From IMG/VR virus record IMGVR_UViG_3300042541_002435, positions 1-41,114 of that record: a stretch of DNA of 41,114 nucleotides; one strand, given 5' to 3'. Both the position numbers and the translations under genes were made by a program. This document shows, in pieces, positions 2,958 through 27,203 of the stretch (position 1 is the stretch's first letter; every line of letters begins with the position of its first letter). The notes below the pieces were generated by a model. The model was not told the DNA's origin. It saw nothing but the letters and a program-made list of their open reading frames with translations, and made no database searches. The DNA is from a virus.

Positions 2958-4840
2958 AAATTCATCTTCACAACACTTGTAAATCGCCCGTAGGTTTTAA
3001 TTTTATACCCTTTTCCGTTAATTTCAAATTTGTGTTCTTTTACGTCATCAGGGTTGCAAAATCCATCTAATCCGAGAACCAATACCTCTTTATCCTTAAT
3101 TTTATAGGCGATTAATACTGATTTTTCATAATATGATTTCGTAGGTAAAGATACGAAATTCCACTCAGAATTGTATTCAATTATGTCCTTATTCTCACTC
3201 ATTGCCCAAATTCCTGACATTATCCAATCAATATTTTTCATTGGCTGCGATGGATACTTACTTAAATTTTCACCGTGCTTTATAGGTAATTGGTTTCCAT
3301 TCACGTCATTTGCACCCCACCCCCAATCTGACTTATTTTCAGACCAAGTATTAGGGTCACTCCAACAATCTAAACCATCTCCAACCAAAGTCCAAACGCC
3401 CCAATTAAATGCTACCGATGGTGTAACTTTAGGTTTTACTTGTGCAAAATATATTCCCTCACTTGATTCTACCCTTACCCTTTCTAAGTCGAAAGTGCTT
3501 ATTGGCTCTTGGTCGAACCAAATGGTAGCCAACATTACTTTACTGGGATTGTATTTTCTATTTAAAAGCAATTCGGTCAAATAATGATGGATAATACCTT
3601 CCTCGACAGGTAGGTTTTGATACCCCCCTATATGCCCCACCTCGACATATTTAGCATAGGTAAAATTAACCGAAACGTATTCGCCAAATCTGCCTTTAAA
3701 TTCATCTAAATTACCATCAAAAGTTAATAAATTACTAAAATCTTGACCGTATCCTTGAAATATAGGGCGACCCATGTTTATGCCTCCAACAGTCCAAAGT
3801 GCCATTTGGGCAGTATGGGGATTGTTTTGCCAAAATTCCAAACACCTTATCAATTTGTCTTGTCTTTTGTGCCAACGATTGCCAACCGTTTCCCAATTTA
3901 GCATTATATAACCTAAATCCCTATTGGGAAAATAAACCTTCTCTACAAAACTTTTTAGTAAAACGTCAGCATCTATCGACTCGCACCATAAGTCCATTGC
4001 CTCTTGTGTGCTTACATAAGCAGTAGGGCAACCTAACTCTAAAAGCCACGCATCACTCACAAAGGCATACCCTTTGCTATCGTTTCTACTTTTTACAAAA
4101 CTTACACCTTTTCTTAAATAATTATTCACCCCTATCTCTCTACTCGGAGTAGGCTGCATAACTACATACTTATTTTTTGGCAAGGTGAAGTCGGGAAATT
4201 TTAAGTCAAAATCCATTAGATGATAGCTCAAATTAGTCTTGTAACCCTTTGGCTTTAAAAAGTATTTTCCATTATCATTCCAAGTATCCTTTTGACCAAT
4301 TGAGATGTATCCTTGACTCCAAGCACCGTAATCATAAAAGCTCTTTTGATTAGCAACTATTGGTGCAAAGTCATAGCCATTCATACCTTTTATAACACCT
4401 CTTTTTGATGGAGCTTTATCCCAATTGTAAGGCTCTATCCAATATCTCGGATTTTGATAATTTACATTAACAGGAAAGACGACAGTCTCCTCATTTGGTG
4501 GAGCTATAACAGTGTCAGGAGGTGTAACAATATCGGGTGGCTTAACTACATCACCCAAATCTTTTTCATTTTTCTTTATATTAAACAAAGAAAATCCTTC
4601 AAACTTTAAGTCAAAGGCTGTAAAGTTCTTGGCAAATATTCCATCAGTTGTAAAGGCTGTATTTTTGCCACGAAAAACCACTCCTACTGAATCGTTTTTC
4701 ATAAAAACAACAAATGTATTTCCTGTTGAATCAGTGGTCAGTATTTGTGTCTTTTGGGCAAAAACTCCCATCGAGAAGAATAGTAAACAAATCACTCTTA
4801 GTGCCTTACTTCTCATAAGCTCAAATGTATGTTTTTTCAT
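2954..4840 (-). CDS. large secreted protein with signal peptide, possible glycosidase-like fold
   Basis: This 628-residue protein begins with a classical Sec signal (basic start, hydrophobic CLLFFSMGVFA, likely signal peptidase I cut before QKT). A small beta-like domain follows to about residue 85, then a Pro/Thr-rich linker (about 94-116), then a large Trp/Tyr-rich domain. Its segment YIMLNWETV resembles a strand end with an acidic residue in TIM-barrel glycoside hydrolases, but I cannot name a family. It lies between holin-like and lysozyme genes and overlaps the latter. It could be a secreted depolymerase, an envelope-modifying protein or a receptor-related protein. Confidence 0.8.
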   Translation of the reverse strand: MKKHTFELMRSKALRVICLLFFSMGVFAQKTQILTTDSTGNTFVVFMKNDSVGVVFRGKNTAFTTDGIFAKNFTAFDLKFEGFSLFNIKKNEKDLGDVVKPPDIVTPPDTVIAPPNEETVVFPVNVNYQNPRYWIEPYNWDKAPSKRGVIKGMNGYDFAPIVANQKSFYDYGAWSQGYISIGQKDTWNDNGKYFLKPKGYKTNLSYHLMDFDLKFPDFTLPKNKYVVMQPTPSREIGVNNYLRKGVSFVKSRNDSKGYAFVSDAWLLELGCPTAYVSTQEAMDLWCESIDADVLLKSFVEKVYFPNRDLGYIMLNWETVGNRWHKRQDKLIRCLEFWQNNPHTAQMALWTVGGINMGRPIFQGYGQDFSNLLTFDGNLDEFKGRFGEYVSVNFTYAKYVEVGHIGGYQNLPVEEGIIHHYLTELLLNRKYNPSKVMLATIWFDQEPISTFDLERVRVESSEGIYFAQVKPKVTPSVAFNWGVWTLVGDGLDCWSDPNTWSENKSDWGWGANDVNGNQLPIKHGENLSKYPSQPMKNIDWIMSGIWAMSENKDIIEYNSEWNFVSLPTKSYYEKSVLIAYKIKDKEVLVLGLDGFCNPDDVKEHKFEINGKGYKIKTYGRFTSVVKMNL

Positions 4841-6107: not shown

Positions 6108-7460
6108 TTAAGCAATACTTGTGATAGCATCAACAAGTTTTCCGTAGTAGATGCCAGTTGTTGGATTCATGTCGGCACACCCAAAGGCAGGACGAGTAAA
6201 TACTTCATACTGTGCTTTCGCTTGAATATTAAATGTTGGATTTGCGTCACAAGCCAACGTAGAAACGTGTGGAGTGTGAATAAACATATCCATCGGCAAG
6301 GTCATATTTCCGTTACGGCAATTGCCAATTGTAATTGGAAGCACACCTACGTCACGGAAATTTTTGATTTTCTCAACCATTTTACCAGTTGTAGCCCAAT
6401 AGTACTCATTCGGAGTATTGTATCTTGAGTCCCCATATAGGGTTAGCCAAAACATTGCTGCCACGTTAGCCTCTAACAAGAAGAATGAGCCATCGCCATA
6501 TTTTGCGTCAATTGAATCATCTTGAACGTATTCTCCTAAGAAACCTAATGCTCTACGAAGCACAGCACCAGTGTCAATTCCTGCATCATTTACTCCTGAT
6601 TGGACACCAACTTCTGCTAATAATTTAGCAAATATGCTACCGCCAATTAAAGTCATGCCTTGACCGCAACGTGGGTGACGACGAATAAAATCTTCCATAA
6701 ACAAACGGAATAAGTTAGCGTCAATTCTTTTTAATCCGTAAGGGACTGCACCAGTCACACTCGAAGTCAATACAGGCAATTCCCAAGTATCCGCACCAAC
6801 AGGGTCGCCAGTTAATACATCCTCAGCCCAATTATACCCAGCACCAGCCTTTAATTTCTCTAAAGTGTGGTTGTTGATTTTCCACAATTGACCCGTGAAT
6901 GGTGCATTGAATGAGTGGTATATTTTCTCAGATAGCAATTTTGCGTTGTATAACCTATCAAAATTGCCAGTTGTTGAAAGCTCATTAATTGCTCTTTGCA
7001 ATACAGCAGCAGCAGCTTGACCACCCCCAGTTCTACGTGCATCCAATACTTGATTGTAATAAGGTGCTACGTCACAGCACATATTATCCCAATCCTTATG
7101 AGTCAAGGTAGTTTTGAAAAACACACATTGTTCAATCGAGAATGGAGTGGTAGCGGTTGTTGGCGTTGCTGTTTCGCCACTTGCACAGGTAAAGTCTGCA
7201 CAATCTGTGTCTAATTCGGTACAATCAGGAGTTTGGTATTCCAAAGTTACCCCGAAATTACCATCTCCATCTTTCCAAATCTTAGAAGCACAGTCTCTTG
7301 GGTCTAACGCTTCTACTACCCTGTCTTGTCTTTGAGACATTACTGCCTTTAATGCTCCATAGCTTGAGGCATCACCTTGTAGGGATTGCATACCTGTTGC
7401 TAATTGCAAATTCACTGTTAGAGACGTAGGGCAAATCTCAGGAATATTTCTTACTGCCAT
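6108..7460 (-). CDS. putative major capsid protein
   Basis: A 450-residue protein placed directly after a coiled-coil scaffold-like gene and three genes after the portal, the usual place for the major capsid protein. It has mixed alpha/beta sequence of HK97-like length, but no family motif I can name, so the call rests on size and context. It is strikingly cysteine-rich (about a dozen Cys, including DTDCADFTC and NMCCDV), which is unusual for a capsid protein assembled in the reducing cytoplasm. The start at 7460 (MAVRNIPEI) follows the scaffold gene by 22 bp. Confidence 0.75.
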   Translation of the reverse strand: MAVRNIPEICPTSLTVNLQLATGMQSLQGDASSYGALKAVMSQRQDRVVEALDPRDCASKIWKDGDGNFGVTLEYQTPDCTELDTDCADFTCASGETATPTTATTPFSIEQCVFFKTTLTHKDWDNMCCDVAPYYNQVLDARRTGGGQAAAAVLQRAINELSTTGNFDRLYNAKLLSEKIYHSFNAPFTGQLWKINNHTLEKLKAGAGYNWAEDVLTGDPVGADTWELPVLTSSVTGAVPYGLKRIDANLFRLFMEDFIRRHPRCGQGMTLIGGSIFAKLLAEVGVQSGVNDAGIDTGAVLRRALGFLGEYVQDDSIDAKYGDGSFFLLEANVAAMFWLTLYGDSRYNTPNEYYWATTGKMVEKIKNFRDVGVLPITIGNCRNGNMTLPMDMFIHTPHVSTLACDANPTFNIQAKAQYEVFTRPAFGCADMNPTTGIYYGKLVDAITSIA

Positions 7461-14077: not shown

Positions 14078-14108
14078 TTGCATAAAACCACAAAGTTTTG
14101 TAGTTTTG
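14078..14108 (+). promoter_or_regulatory. promoter of the tRNA/structured RNA unit
   Basis: -33 TTG (14078-14080), 20 bp spacer and -7 TAGTTTTG (14101-14108) fit the Bacteroidota consensus exactly. An AAAACCACAA / TTGTAGTTTT inverted repeat spans spacer and -7 box, so the promoter can form a hairpin or bind a dimer. It faces right, back to back with the late arm. Confidence 0.75.
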
Positions 14109-14136: not shown

Positions 14137-14193
14137 AAGGGTTGGGGTCGCCAAATATTGACTTATAATGTGCGTAGAATAAACTCAACCCTT
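14137..14193 (+). promoter_or_regulatory. leader hairpin before the small HTH-like gene
   Basis: AAGGGTTG (14137-14144) pairs perfectly with CAACCCTT (14186-14193) in the leader, extendable by a G-U and a G-C pair. The hairpin ends 8 bp before the ATG at 14202 and has no T-run, so it may act on translation or RNA stability rather than termination. Confidence 0.5.
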
Positions 14194-14201
14194 AATGCAA
14201 A

Positions 14202-14387
14202 ATGAACGAACTAATTGAAAAACTAAAAGAAAGGAAATATTTGATAAATATTTCTCAATTAGAGCGAGAGTGTTTAATGCCAAACTATTCCATACATAAT
14301 TGTATTAAGAATAAAGGATGCAAGCATTTTCGCAAAAACTCTGAGATAATTAAGAACGTTCTTTTTAAGTATGGAATTGTAATATAG
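14202..14387 (+). CDS. small HTH-like DNA-binding protein
   Basis: A 61-residue protein with the pattern INISQLERECLMPNYSIHNC, resembling short Cro/HTH_3-like proteins in phages of Bacteroidota (sequence-specific helix-turn-helix followed by a basic helix and a KYG ending). It is the first gene of the rightward arm and might regulate the divergent early/late switch. Its stop codon (TAG, 14385-14387) overlaps the first two bases of the downstream tRNA. Confidence 0.6.
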   Translation: MNELIEKLKERKYLINISQLERECLMPNYSIHNCIKNKGCKHFRKNSEIIKNVLFKYGIVI

Positions 14388-14457
14388 CGAGATAGAGCAG
14401 TAGTAGCTCGTCGGACTCATAATCCGAAGGTCGGTGGTGCAAACCCATCTCTCGCTA
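14386..14457 (+). tRNA. tRNA with CAT anticodon (Met or lysidine-type Ile)
   Basis: Cloverleaf: acceptor AGCGAGA/TCTCGCT, D stem GAGC/GCTC, anticodon stem TCGGA/TCCGA with loop CTCATAA (anticodon CAT), T stem GGTGG/CCATC. A1-U72 pairing argues against an initiator tRNA. The D-loop (AGTAGTA) lacks G18G19 and the T-loop (TGCAAAC) lacks U55, so the usual elbow contact is missing. No CCA is encoded. Confidence 0.8.
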
Positions 14458-14958
14458 CTAATCATAAGGTGTCAATGTTGTCAAAGACGCTAAAAAAGAA
14501 TCAAGTGCTAAATACGTAAGTTGCAATGACAAATGTGGCAACAAAGCAGTTGATTATTTATGATTAAATCAAAAACTTCGTCTAATAGCCTTTTGGCTAC
14601 GTGCGTAGGACGCTCAGAGAGCTGGAAAGTTATCCGAACATTGTGTGTGAGTAAATGTGGGTGAGAATCCCTCAGTTTTTGATTACCTCCGAATCCTGCC
14701 CTTTCTTTGAGAAGGGTTTTAAAAAGGATTTCTTGGTTTATCCAGTTAATAAACCAAGAAAATATGATGAGTAAAATCTGAGGCATCAGGTAGGATTTCC
14801 AAGCAGGTTTACGACAAGTTGCTCGATGCTTTGATTTGTTCGATACAAATGCTCATCACAATTTGTTCATCGCCAAAATGGTGAAGTGAAGTGGCTTAGG
14901 GACTTGTTCTTATCGTTCTCGTTGCCTAAAGACGGGTTCTCAATCAAGAATTGAGTTT
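14458..14958 (+). ncRNA. candidate large structured RNA between two tRNAs
   Basis: About 500 nt without a credible frame on either strand but dense in perfect helices. Long ones are 14459-14467/14558-14566 (9 bp), 14567-14577/14674-14684 (11 bp, stacked directly on the first), 14692-14700/14789-14797 (9 bp with one G-U), and 14729-14741/14749-14761 (13 bp). Smaller local hairpins are at 14520/14542, 14586/14599, 14612/14622, 14638/14658, 14778/14789, 14834/14850, 14896/14929 and 14939/14955. Length, complexity and the tRNA-flanked phage setting resemble GOLLD and ROOL RNAs. I cannot confirm homology to either. Confidence 0.65.
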
Positions 14959-15031
14959 GCTCTGTTGGACAAGCGGTTAAGTCACTTGGTTTTCATCCAA
15001 GTCATCAAGGGTTCAAATCCCTTACAGAGTT
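14959..15031 (+). tRNA. tRNA-Glu (TTC)
   Basis: Acceptor GCTCTGT/ACAGAGT (G-U at 1-72), D arm GAC/GTC with GG in the loop, anticodon stem CTTGG/CCAAG with loop TTTTCAT (anticodon TTC), T arm AAGGG/CCCTT with loop TTCAAAT. It follows the structured RNA with only 3 bp between the last helix and the acceptor. No complete CCA is encoded. Confidence 0.9.
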
Positions 15032-15147
15032 CAAGAGTGCTTTTCATGTGGGAAAACCATTTTTTCATTTTAGTTATTTAAGTTTCATATTTGCAGTACG
15101 CTTGAATCTGTTAAATATATTTTTTTTTAAAATTTCTTCCATTTTGT

Positions 15148-15181: not shown

Positions 15182-15287
15182 TGCGAAAATAATTGGTACG
15201 CCAACACAAAAAATACAGCAATACTCCTTAGCCAATTATTTTCGCAGATTTTTTGGTTATTTCTAAGGGTTTTGCTGTATTTTTTTT
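15182..15287 (+). promoter_or_regulatory. interlocked terminator leader, copy 1
   Basis: Segment X (15182-15196) pairs perfectly, 15 bp, with X' (15232-15246). Segment P (AATACAGCAA 15212-15221 plus CCTTAG 15226-15231) pairs with P' (CTAAGG 15263-15268 plus TTGCTGTATT 15272-15281), followed by a T-run. X' therefore lies in the loop of the P/P' terminator hairpin. X:X' pairing encloses the 5' arm of P and could compete with the terminator or make a pseudoknot. The T-run ends directly at the ATG of the 15288 gene. Copies 2 and 3 precede 38245 and 39037. Confidence 0.7.
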
Positions 15288-16025
15288 ATGCTTAATACAA
15301 GGATATATGTGGAAATGACAAAAAACGCTCTAAAGAGTCAGTTTTCGCCATACCTATTATCTTACTTTAAATTAAGGATATACACTGCTGAAAACAAGTC
15401 TTACGGACAAGTTAAGTTAAGTCAAATTCCAAACATATTAGGCTTATCTGAATCTACCTGTCACAGACATATTAAGGTACTTATTGAAAATGGATATGTT
15501 CTTGAAAAAGGATTATCTATTGAAGTAAAAGCACCAAAGAACCTCTCAAACAAAAAATCACTAAAGTATATAGCTATCGACAGTGAAATCATCAAGGGTT
15601 TCTCTTGGAAGAATATTGCTGAATTTAGAGCTTTACTCGCTGAAATTGTAAAAGAACAATATGAAGCGACAAAGAACTCTATCATCAAAGGATTTAAAGT
15701 TAGAGACAAACAAGGATATAAAGTTAGAGTACAAGACTTAAAACTATTAGAATTTAAAGGGCTTGCGGCACTATCTTTATCAGCCAAACTTTCAAACATC
15801 TCAATTAGAACAGAACAACGTTATCGCTCATTGCAAAAAGTATCCTCTTATACGTCTGAAAAGATATTTATAAACTCAAACGGTGGCGATGGCAGAAAGA
15901 TGGATTTTATAAAATACCTTTCAGACAAAAAGAAGGGTAAATTCATTGAACATAACGATAAGTTATTCTTTTCTTGTGTGTCTGAGAGAGTTTCAGATTT
16001 AAAAATTAACACTTTTAGGCGTTAA
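15288..16025 (+). CDS. winged-helix DNA-binding protein
   Basis: A 245-residue protein. Residues about 35-65 (VKLSQIPNILGLSESTCHRHIKVLIENGYV) form a typical helix-turn-helix plus wing as in replication initiators and MarR/GntR-type regulators. The rest is basic and helical. It is the first sizeable gene of the early arm and is controlled by a structured terminator leader, so a regulatory or replication role is likely. ATG 15288 directly abuts the T-run; an in-frame ATG at 15315 is an alternative start. Confidence 0.7.
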   Translation: MLNTRIYVEMTKNALKSQFSPYLLSYFKLRIYTAENKSYGQVKLSQIPNILGLSESTCHRHIKVLIENGYVLEKGLSIEVKAPKNLSNKKSLKYIAIDSEIIKGFSWKNIAEFRALLAEIVKEQYEATKNSIIKGFKVRDKQGYKVRVQDLKLLEFKGLAALSLSAKLSNISIRTEQRYRSLQKVSSYTSEKIFINSNGGDGRKMDFIKYLSDKKKGKFIEHNDKLFFSCVSERVSDLKINTFRR

Positions 16026-25603: not shown

Positions 25604-25643
25604 AGTGTTTCAATAATTATCTTTTTAAATAACTTTTAGTTTT

Positions 25644-25674
25644 TAGGCTGGCTTAATACCCAGCCTATTTTTTT
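25644..25674 (+). terminator. intrinsic terminator
   Basis: Perfect 8 bp stem TAGGCTGG/CCAGCCTA (25644-25651/25660-25667, loop CTTAATAC) followed by seven T. It ends the unit 21867-25603. Confidence 0.9.
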
Positions 25675-26075
25675 ACCTACCCCACCTGAAATGCTTCAGA
25701 AGAATATCTACTTGGTAATCTCTATAAGTCAGAATATGTGGAGGGACTATACCCCCACCCCATATACGGCTCTCCTTAACTAAGGTTGTACCCCTATGCC
25801 GTCATGACATATAAGGCACTATACAGCCACCACAAGGCAATAACACCCCTCCTATAAGACCATCACATTAAACACATAAAGATAACGCCTTAAACAGCCT
25901 GTTTTGCCCTATATATACGTGCGTGTGTGTCTCCTATATAGCAACACAAATAATCATAATATATAACTATTCTAATAACTTATATAGTTTAATCAAGAAC
26001 TTTAATTGCTTATTGTCTATTGTAAAGAAAGTATATAATTATTTAAAGAACTTTCAATATTTTTTTAGTTTACGC
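25675..26075 (+). other. 400 bp noncoding region with inverted strand bias
   Basis: No frame of note on either strand. In contrast to the purine-rich plus strand of the flanking genes, this stretch is C-rich on the plus strand (for example ACTATACCCCCACCCC). It repeats CTATA-type motifs (about ten) and contains short hairpins (CTGAA/TTCAG, CCTTA/TAAGG, AAACAG/CTGTTT, CTATATA/TATATAG). The motif ATTGTCTATTGT near 26012 is the inverse of ACAATAGACAAT in the two duplicated promoters. Possible replication origin, regulatory hub or minus-strand RNA. Confidence 0.4.
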
Positions 26076-26105
26076 TTGTAAATACAAGAATTGATTGTAC
26101 CTTTG
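26076..26105 (+). promoter_or_regulatory. promoter of the tiny-gene region
   Basis: -33 TTG (26076-26078), 19 bp, -7 TACCTTTG (26098-26105). It restarts transcription after the terminator and noncoding region. Confidence 0.75.
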
Positions 26106-26180
26106 TATCAGTCAAACGAAGCACAGCAACAGCATAGCTTAAACGACACAAAATTTTAAACCTTTTAAATAACTAAGATA

Positions 26181-26276
26181 ATGGAAAATATAACGATTAT
26201 AGACCTAACAATAGTGTTAATAATGTCATTTGTTGTCATCGTTTTTGTTAGAGATTGGTTTAAAAGCAGAAAGTAA
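26181..26276 (+). CDS. 31-residue single-span membrane peptide
   Basis: ATG 26181 opens MENITIIDLTIVLIMSFVVI, a hydrophobic helix, followed by a basic end (RDWFKSRK). A start context AAGATA-ATG and position after a good promoter support expression. Membrane peptides of this size are hard to verify by sequence alone. Confidence 0.5.
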   Translation: MENITIIDLTIVLIMSFVVIVFVRDWFKSRK

Positions 26277-26518
26277 GAATAAATAAAAACAGATTGGCTT
26301 TAGTTCTCAAAAATGTAGCGGTGCAAAACATTAGAGTTTAACGGTCGAATAAAGGTCTTTGACATGATGTAATTAAGATTATTGTAGTAAATAATTCAAA
26401 ATTTGCACTAACTTAGTGTAGTATTGTTCTATTAAATACATTTGCTTATATTTCACGATTATCATTTTTTAATGTCTGTTAAATACAGAAAAATATCAAC
26501 AGCAATGGTCTTAATTTT
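26277..26518 (+). other. noncoding stretch before structured element E1
   Basis: No credible frame. Small hairpins are visible (CACTAA..AGTG near 26408-26420; TCTGT/ACAGA near 26475-26489). No promoter match seen. It leads into the closed structure at 26519. Confidence 0.35.
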
Positions 26519-26563
26519 GGTGCTAAATATAAACTTTGCCTATTGTTGTAAATAGGTAGCACC
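26519..26563 (+). promoter_or_regulatory. structured element E1 before a tiny gene
   Basis: Outer stem GGTGCTA/TAGCACC (26519-26525/26557-26563), 13 unpaired bases on the 5' side, inner hairpin CCTATT/AATAGG (26539-26544/26551-26556), and no linker on the 3' side. It ends 25 bp before ATG 26589. Same layout rule as E2 and E3. Confidence 0.6.
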
Positions 26564-26588
26564 GCTAACCTTAAACAATTAAAAAAAA

Positions 26589-26744
26589 ATGGAAAATTTT
26601 AAATTACTTTCTTGGGGCAATGGTTCTTATTTATATTCTTTTAATAATAACCCTATGCCGATTTTAAAAGGATGGCTATTTTGCGATGAAATTACATATA
26701 GCAAACAAGTTGAATTGTGGCACAATAAAACGTATAACAAATAA
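26589..26744 (+). CDS. hypothetical 51-residue protein
   Basis: ATG 26589 after a run of nine A opens a 51-residue frame rich in aromatic and Asn residues (MENFKLLSWGNGSYLYSFNN). Preceded by element E1 and followed by E2 after 12 bp. No family recognised. Confidence 0.5.
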   Translation: MENFKLLSWGNGSYLYSFNNNPMPILKGWLFCDEITYSKQVELWHNKTYNK

Positions 26745-26756
26745 AGTTATACAAAA

Positions 26757-26826
26757 CACCCCTACAAATTGGATAATATATCGTATAAGTTACGATATAT
26801 TAAAGGTTCGATGCCTTTTAGGGGTG
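26757..26826 (+). ncRNA. structured element E2, tRNA-like three-way junction
   Basis: Outer stem CACCCCTA/TAGGGGTG (26757-26764/26819-26826, 8 bp), 10 unpaired bases, long arm AATATATCGTA/TACGATATATT (26775-26785/26791-26801, 11 bp, loop TAAGT), second arm AAAGG/CCTTT (26802-26806/26814-26818) with the 7-base loop TTCGATG. The second arm and outer stem abut as a tRNA T arm and acceptor do, and the loop nearly fits the T-loop consensus TTCRANY. A normal D arm is missing. It ends 24 bp before ATG 26851. Confidence 0.65.
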
Positions 26827-26850
26827 CTAACATTTAAACATTAAGAAAAC

Positions 26851-26982
26851 ATGAAAGTATATACAACCTACGATGAGGCGAGCAGATTAGCCTCGATATT
26901 AAATAAATGCAGTGAAGTAATTGCGTTGGTTATAAGAGTACAAAATGGGTATGTTATTAAAATACAAAAATACGAACCCTAA
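26851..26982 (+). CDS. hypothetical 43-residue protein
   Basis: ATG 26851 opens a small alpha/beta frame (MKVYTTYDEASRLASILNKC; then a strand pair ending KYEP). The pattern resembles short DUF-type proteins that occur in mobile elements of Bacteroidota. It lies between E2 and a 10 bp hairpin. Confidence 0.5.
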   Translation: MKVYTTYDEASRLASILNKCSEVIALVIRVQNGYVIKIQKYEP

Positions 26983-27000
26983 AATAATTAACAAAATGAA

Positions 27001-27027
27001 AAATCTATGCAAGTTTCGCATAGATTT
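27001..27027 (+). other. perfect 10 bp hairpin
   Basis: AAATCTATGC (27001-27010) pairs with GCATAGATTT (27018-27027), loop AAGTTTC. No T-run follows. A 29-codon frame starting at 26996 would encode it, but the hairpin explains the sequence better. Confidence 0.6.
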
Positions 27028-27101
27028 ACAGGTAAGTACAGAACTAAAGGTATTTAACGCTATTAATTTTCCTATGGTTCTTTAAAATTCTATAAAGCAA
27101 A

Positions 27102-27163
27102 CAACCTATAAATAGAAATTTACACCCCAAAAGTGTACGTAATTCGTTTATTACGATAGGTTG
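27102..27163 (+). promoter_or_regulatory. structured element E3, three-way junction
   Basis: Outer stem CAACCTAT/ATAGGTTG (27102-27109/27156-27163), 11 unpaired bases, arm TACAC/GTGTA (27121-27125/27133-27137, loop CCCAAAA), arm CGTAAT/ATTACG (27138-27143/27150-27155, loop TCGTTT), no linkers on the 3' side. Same layout as E2 with different sequence. It is followed by a short GCAACNTA repeat and the ATG at 27204. Confidence 0.65.
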
Positions 27164-27203
27164 CAACGTAGCAACATAGCAACGAATTTAAACAAATACA
27201 ATT

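Follow-up and report, generated by a model that had tools for sequence, protein, structure and literature searches.

Results

Organization of the tRNA array

The window analysed here is the whole 41,114-base viral record IMGVR_UViG_3300042541_002435, which encodes a terminase, a portal-like protein, an endolysin and a helicase. Promoters of the form TTG-N17-22-TAnnTTTG are enriched on its + strand (15 versus 2.9 in shuffles), a type that, going by the generally known consensus, presumably indicates a Bacteroidota host. One such site precedes a 61-amino-acid (61-aa) ORF and a tRNA array (Table 1), and it is found at the same place in four of four phages (the window and its relatives L003, L004 and L005). 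The ORF likewise adjoins the array in all four phages, with identities by alignment of 70% in L004, 92% in L005 and 43% in L003. The T-loop of the first tRNA gene, tRNA-CAT, reads TGCAAAC, with a G at position 55, and a gap of 500 nt (14459-14958) separates this gene from tRNA-Glu.

Two leaders near the array contain structure of their own, and neither has an Rfam match. The leader of the 61-aa ORF (14137-14193) is closed by a stem, AAGGGTTG/CAACCCTT, around a conserved GTGCGTAGAA segment; in L004 the counterpart, read by eye, is closed by GGTCAGG/CCTGACC. Downstream, an HTH gene at 15288 is preceded by a leader (15182-15285) with two interleaved stems in the order a-b-a'-b' (TGCGAAAATAATTGGT/GCCAATTATTTTCGCA and AAAAAATACAGCAA/TTGCTGTATTTTTT), possibly an H-type pseudoknot or a switch with a T-run at its end. 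Its first stem differs in sequence yet keeps its pairing in L005 and L003, a better covariation than anything in 14459-14958.

Table 1 Features of the tRNA array and of the gap between tRNA-CAT and tRNA-Glu (window coordinates).
Feature	Position	Strand	Description
Bacteroidota-type promoter-like site	14078-14108	+	TTG-N20-TAGTTTTG; upstream of 61-aa ORF and tRNA array
61-aa ORF	14202-14387	+	2-nt overlap with start of tRNA-CAT
tRNA-CAT (anticodon CAT)	14386-14458	+	ARAGORN; Rfam 65.6 bits
Domain A, closed domain	14459-14566	+	z -2.8; perfect 9-bp outer helix 14459-14467/14558-14566; absent from L005
Core part B, predicted tRNA-like RNA	14565-14684	+	Conserved in L005; two-sequence consensus fold; descriptor match; covariance model R1
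Core part B, acceptor-type stem	14567-14577/14674-14684	+	11 bp
Core part B, D-arm-like stem	14579-14583/14608-14612	+	5 bp; encloses hairpin 14586-14599
Core part B, T-arm-like hairpin	14657-14673	+	Loop TGAGAAT 14662-14668
Core part C, two hairpins	14685-14765	+	14699-14716 and 13-bp 14729-14761; kept in L005; z -4.8
Element D, tRNA-like	14766-14858	+	Acceptor GATGAGT/GCTCATC; T-arm ATTTG-TTCGATA-CAAAT; slot of L005 tRNA-Ala
Region E, 3' spacer	14859-14958	+	Structure at chance level, z 0.0
tRNA-Glu(TTC)	14959-15032	+	ARAGORN; common to L005

Structure of the gap

The + strand of the gap folds at -136.7 kcal/mol, compared with a mean of -117.0 kcal/mol for dinucleotide shuffles (z -3.59), and the - strand shows a weaker excess (z -2.54). 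Three perfect Watson-Crick helices reach 9 bp or more (13, 11 and 9 bp), where dinucleotide shuffles give 0.25, whereas helices of at least 7 bp are not above chance (5 versus 5.3 expected). By domain, z is -2.8 for A (14459-14566), -1.7 for B (14565-14683), -4.8 for C (14684-14764), -2.3 for D (14764-14859) and 0.0 for E (14860-14958), while B and C folded as a unit give -3.75. It is thus A, C and the B+C unit that account for the excess structure of the gap; nothing marks out its final 100 nt.

These values bear on an original prediction, made from the letters of the window, which had placed a structured noncoding RNA between the two tRNAs. That much is borne out, both by the fold excess (z -3.6) and by the lack of a conserved gene: a 92-aa minus-strand ORF (14508-14786) has no counterpart in L005, and protein coding was rejected. 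The many long perfect helices that it described hold as an excess at 9 bp and above, but they are three rather than four and at 7 bp and above lie at chance. Its closed domains do begin directly after tRNA-CAT; within their proposed succession, 14860-14958 folds no better than chance. The prediction had also failed to match the region to GOLLD or ROOL and had named an Rfam search as a check, and this search agrees, returning no family for the gap either at the gathering threshold or at a permissive E of up to 10, so that neither GOLLD, with its conserved 3' region, nor ROOL is matched. A GTGCG string that had raised a group II intron as a candidate was taken as chance, and the candidate was dropped for want of an Rfam match.

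A conserved core of about 200 nt

Of the relatives, contig L005 (IMGVR_UViG_3300020045_007949) is the best, with neighbouring proteins at 88-92% identity to those of the window. Its array reads tRNA(ACA), tRNA(CAT) (detected by Rfam), a 218-nt homologue of window 14565-14766, tRNA-Ala(TGC) and tRNA-Glu. This homologue, which we call the core, is directly flanked by tRNA genes in L005, with tRNA-Ala exactly where the window has the 14766-14857 piece, and window positions 14459-14564 and 14767-14958 have no counterpart at the corresponding place. L004 has a single tRNA-Cys there and L003 another mix of tRNAs and tRNA-like pieces, so that the array order is reshuffled among the four phages. Because the relatives differ in pieces, the 500 nt are modular, and the domain folding agrees. 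A single ornate RNA of about 500 nt, as originally predicted, is not supported. Of the gap, L005 retains just 202 nt from the middle, between immediately adjoining tRNA genes, and the 14766-14857 piece, which takes the place of tRNA-Ala, is a tRNA-like element of its own.

The core and its L005 homologue are identical at 167 of 201 aligned positions (83%), and between the two best blocks (50/54 and 40/43) lies a variable segment, which includes an indel of 15 nt. By comparison, identity to L005 is only 61-65% at the fourfold-degenerate sites of four long neighbouring genes (8/11 in the short 61-aa ORF), which gives the core identity a binomial p of about 1e-8 to 3e-10 under the neutral fourfold rate. 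The two copies share no reading frame. Identity above that of fourfold sites in a sequence with no shared frame places the core under purifying selection. Conservation is strongest in single-stranded and T-loop segments. With two known copies of the core (window and L005), nearly all helix positions are invariant in the alignment, and one pair only changes on both sides.

A tRNA-like frame without an anticodon arm

The RNAalifold consensus of the two copies contains the 11-bp acceptor-type stem, the 5-bp D-arm-like stem with TAGCC/GGCTA as its inner hairpin and, directly abutting the 3' strand of the 11-bp stem, GTGGG-TGRGAAT-CCCTC as a T-arm-like hairpin (Table 1). In this model the predicted connectivity is that of the acceptor, D-arm and T-arm of a tRNA, a variable domain standing where the anticodon arm would be. 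The acceptor-type stem is 11 bp as opposed to 7 bp in tRNA, and the T-arm-like loop is TGAGAAT in place of TTCRANT. Single-sequence pair probabilities are low for the D-like, anticodon-like and T-arm helices in both sequences; given these and the one double-changed pair, the frame rests on conservation, connectivity, and the descriptor and covariance-model results. An anticodon-arm-like stem, CTCA/TGAG, was rejected as a drawing only, being absent from the two-sequence fold.

A descriptor requiring a 7-bp acceptor, its 3' strand placed directly after a T-arm whose loop fits T[TG]N[AG]ANN, matches the gap exactly twice, at the core and at 14766-14857, compared with 0.06 times in shuffles. We then built a covariance model from the core (R1) and ran it over 104 kb of phage loci. 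The best non-self match was a true tRNA of the tRNA-rich phage L052 (E 0.011), aligned over the variable loop, T-arm and acceptor, with AAATGTGGGT...AATCCCTC in common. Neither the Rfam tRNA model nor ARAGORN recognises 14565-14684 as a canonical tRNA with an anticodon arm. The core therefore resembles a tRNA with its decoding half replaced and with TGA for TTC in its T-loop. The motif GGTGNRAATCC occurs in five phage records only in tRNA arrays and on the tRNA strand (5/5); as a general array signature it was rejected, not being confined to arrays in eight other phages.

Lineage-specific flanking pieces

Domain A, absent from L005, is lineage-specific, as is the rest of the gap outside the core. 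Element D has the 7-bp acceptor of a canonical tRNA and, adjoining it, a 5-bp T-arm whose loop fits TTCRANN, although it has no Rfam tRNA match and, by eye, no 5-bp stem with a 7-nt anticodon loop. It is an unannotated, lineage-specific element separate from the core.

Searches for further homologues

Among 50,697 phage and 72,556 plasmid records, no sequence homologue of the gap was found beyond its tRNAs. Run as DNA patterns against viral contigs, the two conserved motifs found only L005, and a looser pattern gave 19 chance matches together with L005 and the tRNA-rich phage L035. Protein-guided scans with the portal, the HTH protein and the 61-aa ORF returned only L003, L004 and L005. The major capsid-like protein (6108-7460) had no match in genome contigs, and the core and portal models had none in 399 genomes drawn from a single bacterial order around a Crocinitomicaceae MAG.

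Other tRNA-like and structured elements

Two L003 tRNAs above the Rfam threshold (3406-3473, 33.7 bits; 3606-3669, 43.8 bits) have the apex of the anticodon arm deleted, and they stand at the array place that corresponds to the core region. Elsewhere in the window, an unannotated tRNA-like gene (26757-26826) combines an 8-bp acceptor, CACCCCTA/TAGGGGTG, and a T-arm, AAAGG-TTCGATG-CCTTT, with an 11-bp hairpin with a 5-nt loop that replaces the anticodon arm. Taken together, element D, the L003 tRNAs and 26757-26826 therefore indicate that anticodon-less tRNA-like genes recur in this phage group.

Several other structured pieces were seen. A 1.6-kb stretch of the window almost without ORFs (25604-27203) houses a candidate structured RNA of about 250 nt (26316-26568) closed by a perfect 9-bp helix, TAGCGGTGC/GCACCGCTA. 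On the minus strand of L005, an element of about 125 nt (5609-5483) between tRNA-Glu and a tRNA-Leu-like gene has a 7-bp stem AATAGTC/GACTATT, a T-arm-like GCGG-TGTAAAT-CCGC and a complex body. L035 (IMGVR_UViG_3300020160_002689), an 84-kb phage record, has 43 tRNA matches in three arrays, several of them divergent, and a small minus-strand stem with a TGAAAAT T-loop (172-192) between tRNA-Ile and the next tRNA. In Brevundimonas phage Kikimora (L059), the roughly 900 nt that separate tRNA-Cys from tRNA-Met, near position 154863, contain GGTGCGAATCC on the tRNA strand.

Discussion

A conserved, noncoding sequence with a tRNA-like frame lies within this tRNA array. We favour, with reasonable rather than high confidence, the reading that the gap is part of an array alternating between tRNA genes and structured RNAs that do not decode; the main such RNA would be the tRNA-like core of about 200 nt. 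The 5' 120 nt of the core would form a tRNA-derived frame with a hairpin at the D-arm place and a variable domain at the anticodon-arm place, followed by two hairpins.

The closest kind of RNA is T4 species 1 (rnaC), as a parallel rather than a proven homologue. The T4 species 1 and species 2 RNAs (rnaC, 139 nt; rnaD, 119 nt) are small stable RNAs in a phage tRNA array, and neither has an Rfam match at the gathering threshold. At its end, rnaC has a perfect T-arm, CCGGG-TTCGAAT-CCCGG, and then an acceptor-like stem with partial pairing. A tRNA-type T-arm at the 3' side, a non-tRNA body and the array location are shared with the core; sequence similarity is lacking, and rnaC retains a canonical T-loop. 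The hosts differ too, T4 infecting Escherichia coli while the phage of the window apparently has a Bacteroidota host. The T4 tRNA cluster thus offers a parallel to the core, a conserved RNA about 200 bases long and new to Rfam. In staphylococci, a non-decoding cell-wall tRNA-Gly, which takes no part in translation, resembles the core in having an altered T-loop (G for U55), but it keeps an anticodon and normal size and the core keeps neither. GOLLD and ROOL are structured RNAs that phages or prophages encode close to tRNA islands (PMC12286853). The gap resembles them in place, with tRNA genes on both sides, but the Rfam search excludes both families, and the core differs in its much smaller conserved unit of about 200 nt and its tRNA-like frame.

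A large ornate RNA spanning the whole gap of about 500 nt, which would be a new class working like GOLLD or ROOL with the lineage-specific parts as peripheral domains, would fit the whole-gap fold (z -3.6) and the closed domains that occupy the space between two tRNAs, and GOLLD itself has a variable 5' region and a linker that can carry tRNAs (PMC12286853). However, tRNA genes abut the core on both sides in L005, where nothing matches A, D or E, region E folds as chance, Rfam gives no match, and the conserved part is about 200 nt where many GOLLD members exceed 800 nt; we regard this reading as improbable. If the pieces were instead relics of former tRNAs, decaying among spacer and with no present role, the reshuffling of the array between relatives, the damaged anticodon arms in D and the L003 elements and the lack of conservation of A and E would all be expected. 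Decay could still account for D, A and E, and the other anticodon-less elements may be either functional or decaying, but the core is conserved well above fourfold sites, which argues for a function of the core and makes decay an unlikely explanation overall. In a further reading the core is a cis-acting spacer or processing signal that mainly prepares cleavage or shields the tRNA precursor and is inactive once excised. Its tight fit between tRNAs agrees with this, as does the place of the 13-bp hairpin, which in both phages lies directly 5' of the following tRNA or tRNA-like element. We think such a spacer very doubtful, as the top conservation, in single-stranded and T-loop segments, would exceed what a processing hairpin needs.

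Returning to alternating tRNAs and structured RNAs, the 61-aa ORF, the tRNAs and the structured RNAs would be co-transcribed from the promoter at 14078-14108. The RNAs would then be excised by tRNA processing enzymes at the flanking tRNAs, a plausible route that the original prediction had raised, and perhaps at the tRNA-like stems, and may persist as stable mimics of tRNA that lack an anticodon. The likeliest role for such mimics would be to bind or occupy a tRNA-handling factor, such as a host defence enzyme that attacks tRNA or a processing or charging enzyme. A decoy role of the core RNA is a tentative suggestion, reasonable because phage tRNA loci can defeat tRNA-cleaving defences, as with Septu and phage T6 (PMC13096335). 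Equally speculative, though worth stating, is a recurrent class of phage-array RNAs with an acceptor/T-arm frame, in which the anticodon arm is deleted or swapped for large domains and which are selected as tRNA mimics, for example as decoys; the core would be its first conserved member and T4 species 1 a distant parallel.

Non-tRNA RNAs of phage tRNA clusters have been known since the T4 species 1 and 2 RNAs, and to our knowledge their function is unexplained. RNAs of the core type would be a warning that tRNA finders miss tRNA-like genes in phage arrays. A conserved small RNA with a tRNA frame and no anticodon, in an unrelated phage group, would offer a second, independently evolved handle on the role of these array RNAs.
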